DNA from: Cellulosimicrobium cellulans
GTDB taxonomy: Bacteria > Actinomycetota > Actinomycetes > Actinomycetales > Cellulomonadaceae
Direction of reading: 5' to 3'
DNA length: 64,000 nt
Assembly: GCF_016921195.1 (NCBI RefSeq)
Contig: NZ_JAFGYF010000005.1
Location: 1 to 64,000 of the forward strand
Shown: one piece after another, positions 8,701-51,587 of the stretch
How positions within the stretch are numbered: position 1 is the stretch's first letter
How the letters are laid out: every line of letters begins with the position of its first letter
Position numbers and translations under genes: made by a program
The notes under the pieces: generated by a model
Told to the model about the DNA's origin: nothing
What the model saw: the letters and a program-made list of their open reading frames with translations, nothing else
Databases searched by the model: none

Positions 8701-8960
8701 CGACGATCTTCGCGCTCACCCCGATGGCGATCGGCATTACCGGCGGCGGGGCGTTCATCTCCCAGCCGCTCGCGCTCGTCGTCATCGGCGGCCTGCTCAG
8801 CTCGACGCTGCTGACCCTGGTCGTCGTGCCGGTGCTGTACACGCTCGCGGAGCGCCGGGGCGAGAAGCGCGCGGCGAGGAAGGCCGCCAAGGAGGAGGCC
8901 GCCGCCCAGGCCGAGGCCGACAAGGCCGCCGCCGCGGAGGCCGCCACGGCGAAGGGGTAA
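5778..8960 (+). CDS. RND family efflux permease (AcrB/MMPL-like, HAE1 type)
   Basis: The 1060-residue protein has the full RND repeat plan: TM1 near residue 15-35, a large outer loop with porter domains (about 40-330), TM2-TM6 (about 335-500), TM7 after residue 535, a second large loop, and TM8-TM12 (about 870-1035). The proton relay motif is present in TM4 (GRVVDDSIVVIEN, Asp404 and Asp405). The tail is Ala/Lys/Glu-rich and cytoplasmic. Start is GTG with GGAGGCTCC just upstream. No periplasmic adaptor or outer-membrane partner gene is adjacent, as in Bacillus SwrC-type pumps, so it probably exports amphiphiles across a single membrane. Regulated by the divergent MarR. Confidence 0.93.
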   Translation: MSRLARLSLANRALVALATVAIAIFGVISMGSLKQELIPSLQIPTAAVVGVYPGSAPAIVEQQVTVPVETAARAVKGVEDVTSTSSTGMSVTTVQFAYGTDMDAASSQLQTAITRLQSQLPEDVEPQVVTGSVDDLPVIQLAVSGGSDDAALADTVESSVVPALEDVEGVRSVAVSGIADQQVTIDLDPAALAAAGLSPQQVSSVLQDNGVVMPAGTVSDGDRTLSVQVGTAVTTVDELAALPLVPPTAAPGTAPVALDDVATVTAGPEPATSFSRLDGEPALAVAITKTPAGNTVEVSHAVQDAVDDLAGVLEAQDVRVEVVFDQAPFIEESIEGLATEGLLGLLFAVVVILLFLASLRSTLVSAVSIPLSLLVTFIVMNATGYTLNILTLGAMTVAIGRVVDDSIVVIENIKRHLSYGEEKVGAIIGAVKEVAGAITASTVATVAVFLPIALVGGMVGELFRPFALTVAIAMLASLFVALTIVPVLAYWFITSPPVPADPEAARLAGERARAAAEAKERRGLWQRGYVPTLRAALRHPAITLGVSVAILAGTLALVPRLETNFLGDTGQDTLTVTESFAPGTSLETQDAAARDVEQALLDVDGVATVQTTVGTAGGPEAAFFGGGGSPTATFAVTLDADADAVAAQEDVRDAVSGLGGEASEGIEVAGADAAFGSSTVDLVVRAPDTDTLAAAAADVQELAEGTDGAAQVTNNLASAQSTVQVTVDRDAAAAVGLTETQVAGTVAGTMSPAPIGTVNLGDGPVQVRVLAGEAPATVAELEQVVLPTAAGPVPLTQVAEVTEVEVPTSITRVDGERSATISVTPAGQDLGALTAELTTAIDGLELEGGATVEIGGVASDQADAFADLGLALLVAILIVYLVMVATFRSLLQPFILLVSIPFAATGALLLLLATATPLGVPALIGLLMLVGIVVSNAIVLIDLINQYRERGRSLDDAVLEGSRKRLRPIVMTAAATIFALTPMAIGITGGGAFISQPLALVVIGGLLSSTLLTLVVVPVLYTLAERRGEKRAARKAAKEEAAAQAEADKAAAAEAATAKG

Positions 8961-8984
8961 GCCTGAGGGCGAATCGCCCCTGGT

Positions 8985-9089
8985 GAGGTAGAACCGTGGT
9001 CTGCCGAGGCAGAACCCTGGTCACGCGAGGTAGAACGGTGGTTGCGCGAGGTAGAACCGTGGTTGCGCGAGGTAGAACCGTGGTTGTGC
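8985..9089 (+). repeat. Left array: five tandem 21-base repeats
   Basis: Five units start at 8985, 9006, 9027, 9048 and 9069, spaced exactly 21 bases. The core is GAGGTAGAACCGTGGT with variable last bases; units differ at a few positions (GAGGCAGAACC at 9006, AACG at 9027). The array begins 25 bases after the RND stop codon, beyond a small GGGCG-AAT-CGCCC hairpin. A related array in the opposite orientation lies at 9635-9760. Period of 21 keeps every frame open and equals two DNA helical turns. Confidence 0.9.
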
Positions 9090-9634
9090 TCGACGGCGTC
9101 CGGACCGTGCGTGCGCGGTCGGTCGCCCACCGTCGGCTGGGTCGGGCGCCCATGGCGGGGCGGTCGCCCTCCGCGAGCCGTGGTCGTCCGTCGGAGCGGG
9201 AGTGCCCGACGTCGGTGGGTCGCCGGTGTTCTCGGGTCGGGTGCCACGGTCGAGTCCGGGCCGCGATCGTGTCGCCCGGGGCACGTACGCCGCCAGGCCG
9301 GCCAGCGGCCCAGACAGGTCGGCCACGCGATGTGGGCGCGTGCGACGACCACGACGCGCCATGACCACCTGCTCGATCGACCGACCCGTCGCCCCACGCG
9401 GGAAGCGGCACCGGGAAGCGACGACGCGACCGAGCGGGACAGCGCGGTATGGGCGGACGCACCCGCAGGCTGTTGCCCGGGTGAGCGCAGACCGGGGTAG
9501 GACGACGCCGGGCGGGGTGGGTGGTGGTGCCGCGTCGTGGATGGGCCTGGCGGGAGCCGCGAGGAACGAGCGGCGGATGGTAGACGCGGCACCACCCACC
9601 CCGACCACCCAGGCCGACCACGCGCCGTCGAGCA
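9090..9634. other. Gene-free spacer between the two inverted arrays
   Basis: These 545 bases lie between the arrays. Frames are open in places but the translations are Arg/Pro-rich and change character at the arrays, so no gene is called. Just inside each array the sequence TTGTGCTCGACGGCG continues in mirror orientation (from about 9084 on the plus strand; about 9635 downward on the minus strand), so the inverted duplication extends beyond the repeats. It contains a 14-base perfect stem at 9523-9536/9583-9596. Confidence 0.6.
9523..9596. repeat. Inverted repeat within inter-array spacer
   Basis: GGTGGTGCCGCGTC (9523-9536) pairs perfectly with GACGCGGCACCACC (9583-9596) around a 46-base loop; GGGTG/CACCC pairing can extend it past a short bulge. 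There is no T-run, so it is not an obvious terminator. Confidence 0.6.
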
Positions 9635-9760
9635 CAAGAACCACGGTTCTACCTCGCGGGACCAGGGTTCTACCTCGCGGGACCAGGGTTCTATCTCGGC
9701 TGACCAGGGTTCTATCTCGCGTGACCACGGTTCTATCTCGCGCCACCACGGTTCTCCCTC
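9635..9760 (-). repeat. Right array: six tandem 21-base repeats, inverted to the left array
   Basis: Six units end at 9655, 9676, 9697, 9718, 9739 and 9760. Read on the minus strand the core is GAG(G/A)TAGAACC(G/C)TGGT, the same as the left array. The outermost unit (GAGGGAGAACCGTGGT) is the most diverged. The array ends 34 bases from the stop codon of the response regulator, so the element fills the gap between two converging genes. Confidence 0.9.
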
Positions 9761-9794
9761 GGCAGGCGCAGGGGCTCGGCCGGTGGAGAAGGGG

Positions 9795-10496
9795 TCAGGA
9801 GGGGCGGGCGACGCCCGTCTCGTAGGCCAGGACGACGGCCTGGACGCGGTCGCGCAGGCCGAGCTTGCCGAGGACGCGGCCGACGTGGGTCTTGACCGTC
9901 GCCTCCGAGAGCACGAAGCGCTCGGCGATCTCGGCGTTCGTCAGCCCCTCGCCGAGGGCCTCGAACACCTCGAGCTCGCGCGCCGTGAGCTCGGCGAGGC
10001 GGGGGTCGTCCCGGCCGGTCTGCGCCTGTGCGGGGGCCGCGGCGCCGTCCTGCGGAAGCTGGCCCGCGAACATCTCGAGCATGCGGCGCGTGATGCGCGG
10101 GGAGACCGCGGCGTCCCCGCTCGCGACGGCGCGGATCGCCCCGACGAGCTCGCCGGGCTTGGCGTCCTTGAGCAGGAACCCGCTGGCGCCGGCGCGCAGC
10201 GCGGCGAACGCGTACTCGTCGAGGTCGAACGTCGTGAGGATGATGACGCGCGACTCCGGCTGCGCGGCCACGATGCGCTCGGTGGCCTCGATGCCGTTCG
10301 TCCCGGGCATGCGGACGTCCATGAGCACGACGTCGGGCCGCAGCGCGGCGGCCTGCGCGATCCCGGTCTCTCCGTCCCCGGCCTCCCCGACCACCTCGAT
10401 GTCGTCCTCGGCGGCGAGGATCATGCGGAAGCCCATGCGCAGCAGGGCCTGGTCGTCGACGAGCAGCACCCGGGTCGGTGCGCCGCTGTCCGTCAT
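9795..10496 (-). CDS. Two-component response regulator, NarL/LuxR type
   Basis: The 233-residue protein has a receiver domain (about 8-125) with the acidic pair Asp14/Asp15, phosphoacceptor Asp60 (VVLMDVRMPG), Thr in ILTTFD and Lys in FLLKDA. After a Pro/Ala/Gln linker, a LuxR-type helix-turn-helix spans about 163-225 (LTARELEVFEALGEGLTNAEIAERFVLSEATVKTHVGRVLGKLGLRDR). Its ATG overlaps the stop of the histidine kinase gene (ATGA), so it is the fourth gene of an ABC exporter/two-component operon. It probably controls that operon in response to the kinase. Confidence 0.95.
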   Translation of the reverse strand: MTDSGAPTRVLLVDDQALLRMGFRMILAAEDDIEVVGEAGDGETGIAQAAALRPDVVLMDVRMPGTNGIEATERIVAAQPESRVIILTTFDLDEYAFAALRAGASGFLLKDAKPGELVGAIRAVASGDAAVSPRITRRMLEMFAGQLPQDGAAAPAQAQTGRDDPRLAELTARELEVFEALGEGLTNAEIAERFVLSEATVKTHVGRVLGKLGLRDRVQAVVLAYETGVARPS

Positions 10497-51454: not shown

Positions 51455-51519
51455 CGGCGCGCACGAGCCGAGACGCCTGACCGCCACAGACCCCGGGCCG
51501 CGAGCCGGTCGGCCCGGTC

Positions 51520-51566
51520 ACCCAGCACCCACCCAGCACACCCAGCACACCCAGCACACCCAGCAC
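51520..51566. repeat. Five 9-base tandem repeats in leader of the binding-protein gene
   Basis: ACCCAGCAC occurs at 51520, 51531, 51540, 51549 and 51558 (two bases separate the first two). It ends 21 bases before the start codon of the solute-binding protein gene. The unit lacks G-rich ribosome-site character and could be a slippage-prone spacer or a translation-tuning element. Confidence 0.85.
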
Positions 51567-51587
51567 CACCGGAACACAGGAGTGACG

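Follow-up and report, generated by a model that had tools for sequence, protein, structure and literature searches.

Among described repeat systems, the closest to the locus analysed here are the GTAG REP elements. As far as the accessible text describes them, these have stems of 5–13 bp and loops often of 2–3, their TAG is often the stop codon of a gene, and they form opposite-orientation pairs downstream of genes; they also enter DNA-repair genes, and their intragenic copies include DNA replication and repair genes (Di Nocera et al. 2013, PMC3733652). According to the same source, REP-like repeats have been described mainly in Proteobacteria and the GTAG types are proposed to be driven by a Y1 transposase; the string "Actinobacter" is absent from its main text (PMC3733652). 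A second relevant group is the Rickettsia palindromic elements (RPEs), which the available part of another source describes as in-frame palindromes in unrelated protein genes (PMC10969869).

The window, i.e., the whole stretch of DNA analysed (64,000 nucleotides of Cellulosimicrobium cellulans), contains two arrays of direct repeats between two converging genes (table 1). Each unit consists of a 16-base core, GAGGTAGAACCGTGGT, and five variable bases, with an exact period of 21 bases and a GTAG tag at one unit end (core GAG-GTAG-AACC). The preliminary description of this DNA had reported five forward and six reverse units in opposed arrays; both arrays are real, the minus array covering 9640–9760, and the core with up to three mismatches has 11 matches in the window against 0.38 expected by chance (100 shuffles, none of which reached 11). 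Its statement that the duplication continues inward in mirror image also proved right, since the two copies of TTGTGCTCGACGGCG are complementary at 15 of 15 positions. The codon-score script used for gene calls found no gene between the arrays or in them, though reading frames cross the arrays. Thus, the gene-free interior and convergent flanks were as described, and the window arrays are not explained by a coding frame, the finding that might have overturned the description. A CRISPR array was rejected because the spacers between repeats have 5 bases and are not long unique ones. When window positions 8900–9850 were compared with Rfam 15, the list at E ≤ 5 had a single entry, mir-1234, which scored 21 bits where the gathering score is 70.

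Table 1. Coordinates of repeat features in the window and of selected repeat copies at other loci.
Feature	Position	Strand	Remarks
Convergent neighbour gene, 1060 codons	5778..8960	+	product resembles an RND-type efflux pump (translation inspected by eye)
Array A+	8985..9089	+	five 21-base units; the first begins 24 bases past the stop of the upstream gene
A+ unit starts	8985, 9006, 9027, 9048, 9069	+	
TTGTGCTCGACGGCG	9084..9098	+	array-to-M joiner in other copies; M is not behind it on this side
Stretch alignable to hairpin T (65–72%)	9297..9375	.	best-conserved arm 9353–9375
M, hairpin of about 93 nt	9512..9603	-	covarying outer stem, small inner hairpin, near-invariant loops; copy in L100
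Joining sequence TTGTGCTCGACGGCG	9623..9637	-	between array A- and M
Array A-	9640..9760	-	six 21-base units; 34 bases past the response-regulator stop
A- cores	9640–9655, 9661–9676, 9682–9697, 9703–9718, 9724–9739, 9745–9760	-	
Convergent neighbour gene, 233 codons	9795..10496	-	product looks like a LuxR-type response regulator, by inspection
Separate 9-base tandem repeat CACCCAGCA	51519..51577		5.1 copies, just ahead of the predicted gene start 51582
Array within an EamA transporter gene	L057:2476-2596		antisense
Array at the 3' end of an IclR regulator gene	L084:2523-2643		the gene reads into the array
Two units within a PLP decarboxylase gene	L081:2546-2582		antisense
Three tandem M copies	L197:1355-1574		other family of the same order; all on one strand after a single gene, spaced by about 90 bases

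The repeat belongs to a large family found almost only in Cellulosimicrobium. When up to two mismatches are allowed, the core has 196 forward and 221 reverse matches in the 4.58-Mb genome (417 near-copies in total), against 2 + 1 = 3 for a reversed control. Arrays were counted only if they had at least two units. Of the 17 genus genomes, 14 matched a two-unit pattern (G001, G003, and G013 did not); elsewhere there was one match, in one of 133 other genomes of the family, which makes two of the 25 genera overall. A scan of a named genome collection with this pattern returned 20 stretches, all from Cellulosimicrobium. Arrays were absent from 12 loci of response-regulator paralogues and from one locus with a related gene (L117–L129), which were therefore uninformative. 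Assembly error, which the preliminary description had considered, is unlikely, because the same kind of array is present at the window locus in five other genomes, of which G004 and G007 are single-contig. Literature text searches found no match to the core strings, and the combined literature searches of titles and abstract starts found no account of a palindromic repeat in Cellulosimicrobium.

To describe the units, we used the window and 49 stretches picked, non-randomly, from the matches listed (100 of the 417), which together hold 369 readable units in 87 arrays. Conservation is strong at most positions of the core but not at those of the spacer. Divergence is highest in the outermost unit (a mean of 1.94 mismatches vs 1.29 and 1.22, in 79 arrays of at least three units). 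Units of one array resemble each other more than shuffled units do, the value lying under all 1000 shuffles at three of the four variable positions and near the lowest at the fourth. Exact counts of A-type and G-type units differ by species (101/49 in G000, 87/0 in G012, 10/137 in G002, 0/39 in G010, and 3/31 in G006). The species-skewed unit types and the likeness within arrays suggest homogenisation or recent amplification. The only conserved pairing within a unit is ACC/GGT around a two-base centre; positions 8 and 17 pair in 26% of the 369 units, no compensation was observed, and the inverted repeat amounts to 3–4 bp at most.

The preliminary description had also envisaged a stem of over 100 bases formed between the two arrays, and folding supports this in part. 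The window intergenic strand (834 nt) folds with a z-score of -10.3 against 20 shuffles, and in this fold 85 bases of one array are paired with the other, but the arrays alone gave only z-scores from -2.0 to +1.2, with no significant fold in any of the five single arrays tested (-1.98, +1.20, -1.43, -0.54, and -1.42). Arrays as self-standing folded RNA are thus unsupported. The lack of a significant RNA fold of the arrays would fit another reading, namely that they are DNA to which a protein, such as a chromosome-organising one, binds at multiple sites in phase with two helical turns, and so would the conserved core with its unconserved spacers and the regular spacing, which is exactly 21 in 264 of 282 cases and 20 in 7. 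Tandem duplication also yields an exact period, however, tandem matches per species range from 0 to 206, and the arrays are absent at the window locus in 10 of 16 genomes, which makes this reading quite improbable.

Further pairs with the inverted layout of the window are common. Across the window and the 49 fetched stretches, 31 inward-facing array pairs were found and no neighbours in the reversed arrangement; another 25 arrays had no mate under the pair definition, several of them at contig ends. Among the 30 pairs with readable flanks, the gene context is convergent in 18, same-direction in 9, and divergent in 3, whereas 52 of the 227 pairs of neighbouring genes in these stretches converge. 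The preceding gene is on the same strand as the array for 62 of 85 arrays, 52 of which begin within 60 nt of the stop, and on the opposite strand for the other 23. In 14 genes the stop codon is the TAG at positions 5–7 of the first unit, with an exact GAGGTAG in 12, compared with a GAGGTAG ending in 4 of 195 genes that are not near a same-strand array. Stop contexts of the GAGGTAG type may have been the points at which arrays were seeded. In two array-free species (L115 and L116), the efflux gene ends in GAGGTAG, the start of an array unit. Called genes are overlapped by 4 of the 87 arrays, and Pfam domains were found in three of these genes and in one none (examples in table 1).

We also compared the mates of each pair. 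In 24 wide pairs the mates are no more alike than random arrays (P = 0.58), and in seven tight pairs there is a weak likeness (P = 0.04), so that an origin of mates by recent inverted duplication is unsupported for the former and weakly supported for the latter. Most of the 24 wide interiors hold a conserved module past one array, at whose centre lies the hairpin M; the interiors of L063 and L087 match no other, and those of L080 and L092 match weakly. A second long hairpin module, GGTCGGGTCCGCGGTGGGGGTGGGCTCGG ... CCGAGCCCACCCCCACCGC, lies by several arrays (interiors of L062, L086, and L097; intergenic regions of L103–L106), and kin sequence was recognized by eye in the array-free loci L111, L112, and L114.

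A 195-nt sequence around one copy of M forms a hairpin on folding (z = -5.4), and the outer stem of M covaries very strongly. Both sides have changed at 25 of 28 stem pairs among 25 sequences, and the covariation score is 0.551 compared with 0.131 for shuffled and at most 0.123 for slid versions, although the structure was taken from the same alignment, which favours it over the slid versions; none of 500 shuffles reached any of five measures. On the other hand, the loops CCATCC, CTCGTTCCTCG, and CTCCCGCCAG are nearly invariant in 40 sequences, and the conserved loop is about 46 nt long. In 20 copies of the own genome (6 of them cut by contig ends), hardly any variation was seen in the loop region or the inner stem. 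G084 has three copies with different stems. No match at the gathering score was found in Rfam 15 for eight M loci, and no U-run was seen behind M in the sequences read. At least 6 of the 23 contigs of G000 (C3, C4, C5, C17, C18, and C21, at L065, L066, L070, L075, L079, and L091) start at an array or up to about 130 bases from one, several within a copy of M, indicating that these repeats break the assembly.

Compensated stems may in principle arise without selection. Template switching during replication is an established process that corrects imperfect palindromes, and such an origin would agree with the length of the M stems (median of 25 positions in 60 copies), which are near-perfect even in protein genes, where selection on RNA is less expected. 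It explains neither the near-invariant loops across families nor the orientation bias of M at gene ends, and we regard it as a rather improbable account of the stems.

The range of M is much wider than that of the arrays. A covariance model detected M in 41 of 150 genomes of the family, representing 10 of 25 genera and including all 17 genomes of the genus, among them G001, G003, and G013, in which the two-unit array pattern was not matched. At the order level, a second model detected M in 19 of 396 genomes, which belong to five families including its own. At the class level it was found in 8 of 394 genomes, the window's own genome included, and two of the seven loci read (L217 and L218) resemble M only partly. 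Since at most 28 or at most 10 candidates were scored per genome, the copy numbers of M per genome are lower bounds.

M copies mostly follow a gene on the same strand. In the window, M is sense relative to the response-regulator gene. When both neighbours were readable, the upstream gene is on the same strand for 12 of 14 own-genome copies and 40 of 50 others, and on the opposite strand for 2 of 14 and 10 of 50, respectively; outside the genus, 21 of 26 copies with readable neighbours lie behind a same-strand gene, some of these loci being orthologous. In convergent regions M is closer to the stop of the gene to which it is sense in 30 of 32 cases, and where the neighbouring genes run in the same direction, copies outside the own genome are sense 16 times and antisense 7 times, a modest bias to which orthologous loci contribute.

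M also lies inside genes. A fuzzy pattern gave 68 rows outside the own sample, of which two that duplicated other rows were dropped, and 13 of the resulting 66 distinct copies are within called genes (8 sense and 5 antisense) and 53 are not. In all nine M-bearing genes scanned out of the 13, Pfam domains were found around or before M in one open frame. These genes are NHL/thioredoxin, LigD, RNase H/AAA, PriA, P-type ATPase, CCG-domain Fe-S, DEAD-type helicase, and two FtsW-type genes. The linker of the NHL-repeat gene is readable in 25 genomes; M occupies it in 5 and is absent in the other 20, one of which (G001) has a weak match (E = 0.61); seven more loci without a readable linker had no match to the M model. 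The five M stems in this gene differ and all still pair.

One explanation for these observations is that M is primarily a selected functional 3'-end RNA, such as a protein-bound terminator or stabiliser, and that its dispersal is secondary. The compensated stems with conserved loops, the same-strand upstream genes, the proximity to the sense stop in convergent regions, and the intergenic RNA that folds far better than its 20 shuffles are all in agreement with such a role. It fits less well with the copies inside called genes, five of which are antisense, with the patchy occurrence in the order, and with the near-identical copies of M within one genome; M being first of all such an RNA thus seems unlikely.

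The history of the locus was examined by comparing the window locus in 16 of the 17 genomes of the genus (G015 was excluded because its flanking genes are not convergent). Arrays are present in six of them (G000, G014, G002, G004, G006, and G007), G003 and G013 have M without arrays, and eight genomes have neither. No M was detected beside the arrays of G014, G009 has M without arrays at an orthologous site, and G006 and G007 have different unit numbers at this site. A second locus has M in three genomes, two of which also have arrays there. The independent presence of M and arrays at orthologous sites shows that they are separable layers, the arrays being a layer specific to one lineage that surrounds the older hairpin M.

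By inspection, another hairpin is found at the window locus in five of the eight genomes that lack both arrays and M. In four array-free relatives (G005, G008, G010, and G012) this sequence, hairpin T, aligns at 65–72% with a stretch that the window arrays enclose (table 1). Hairpin T (CGAGCAGGTGGT...ACCACCTGCTCG) is dispersed: besides the array-free orthologues of the window locus (intergenic regions of L102, L107, L109, and L110), similar hairpins lie elsewhere in the genome (L072:548-607).

Foldback transposons have inverted ends of short tandem repeats around a variable interior, and the window arrays resemble them in this layout. The whole pair might accordingly be a classical mobile unit (a MITE or foldback transposon) whose terminal repeats are the inverted arrays and which is inserted in one step, a reading that would also explain why the inward order is kept in convergent, same-direction, and divergent contexts alike. 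However, M without arrays in G009, G003, and G013 and arrays without detected M in G014 speak against it, as do the mates of wide pairs, which are no more alike than random arrays. The variable part of M is its outer stem, the opposite of transposon ends, and the window pair encloses sequence that resembles a hairpin found in relatives without arrays. Unlike foldback transposons, the arrays and the interior vary independently, and no transposase was found (the Y1 family was searched). Thus, the reading is strained and very improbable. The preliminary description had considered a mobile or palindromic intergenic element: the dispersed family and the inward layout agree with this, but the element is not strictly intergenic, considering the four arrays that overlap called genes, and because arrays and M vary independently between relatives they do not make up one mobile unit with constant ends.

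With regard to mobilisation, the Y1 transposase family (PF01797) was detected in none of the 17 genomes of the genus (the control was positive in 5 of 14), and Y1/RAYT mobilisation was rejected on this basis. We also clustered 500 proteins flanking M. Inspection of the 12 largest of 83 clusters revealed no partner gene shared by M; they are ordinary genes, the largest resembling ABC-transporter ATPases, and orthologous loci.

Considering all these data, the arrays are probably part of a dispersed mosaic of non-autonomous palindromic repeats that work in a REP/BIME-like manner. The first layer of this mosaic is M, a hairpin of roughly 93 nt with a long stem that varies freely but keeps its pairing and with near-invariant loops, which is scattered patchily in Actinomycetes, near gene ends and in genes. 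The folded form of M, either RNA or single-stranded DNA, may be recognised by a putative factor that would also spread it; we speak of spreading here as suggested by copy number and by presence and absence. The second layer is the tandem arrays of the GTAG-containing 21-mer in Cellulosimicrobium, placed on the gene-proximal sides and pointing inward, with unit types that are skewed between species and have probably been homogenised within arrays. Copies would survive mainly right behind stop codons, where they may be transcribed as 3' ends, and between converging genes they might form a structural boundary, with the inverted arrays lengthening the M-centred stem. Judging from sequence, a role at RNA 3' ends is plausible, and it is not universal since the upstream gene is on the opposite strand for 23 of 85 arrays and for some M copies (2 of 14 and 10 of 50).

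A more tentative proposal, which we hold with less than even confidence, is that M represents a previously undescribed mobile structured nucleic acid of Actinomycetes. Its fold would be read via the conserved loops by a putative factor, any stem that pairs would be tolerated, and it would prefer the sense orientation behind stops and also sit in frame inside proteins, including those of genome maintenance; in Cellulosimicrobium it would be dressed with inverted arrays of a GTAG repeat that has no stem and needs no Y1 transposase to spread.

Intrinsic terminators are GC-rich hairpins shortly past stop codons, and M is likewise a GC-rich hairpin soon after stops. It differs from them in its long conserved loop, in its occurrence inside coding genes, and in that no U-run was seen. 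M also lacks the conserved terminal inverted repeats of MITEs, since its outer stem is variable, and no common partner gene was seen in the 12 largest clusters of its flanking proteins. With the RPEs, as characterized in the accessible part of their description, M shares the in-frame location in unrelated genes (nine of nine scanned genes, with 20 of 25 NHL orthologues lacking M). This likeness is one of description, not sequence: the organisms are unrelated, 53 of 66 M copies are not in genes, and in M the loops are kept and the stem varies. Among the repeats of this locus M is the more surprising part: a structured motif that covaries very strongly, was found neither in Rfam 15 nor in the literature searches, is multi-copy in several actinobacterial families, and is tolerated in LigD, PriA, and FtsW genes.

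The array repeat itself is real, occurs across the genus, and belongs to a known kind of genome repeat. Compared with the available description of GTAG REPs, M is far larger than a REP of 20–40 bp and has no terminal GTAG tag, and the array unit has an inverted repeat of 3–4 bp instead of a stem of 5–13 bp and thus no stem-loop of that type. An associated RAYT (Y1) gene was not detected either, PF01797 having no match in the 17 genomes of the genus. Because the unit has neither a stem of at least 5 bp nor a detected Y1 partner, we consider the arrays REP-like and do not file them as REPs. In other respects the correspondence with GTAG REPs and BIMEs, as far as the accessible text describes them, is close: the units carry the tag, reach a high copy number, occur both in tandem and opposed to each other with the GTAG outside, and lie mainly outside genes, downstream of them and in opposite-orientation pairs, between convergent or same-direction genes near the 3' end, where the TAG is used as a stop codon; some are intragenic. 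A GTAG-tagged, stop-using repeat of gene ends that is abundant without a detected Y1 enzyme or a real stem makes the agent of its spreading directly testable.
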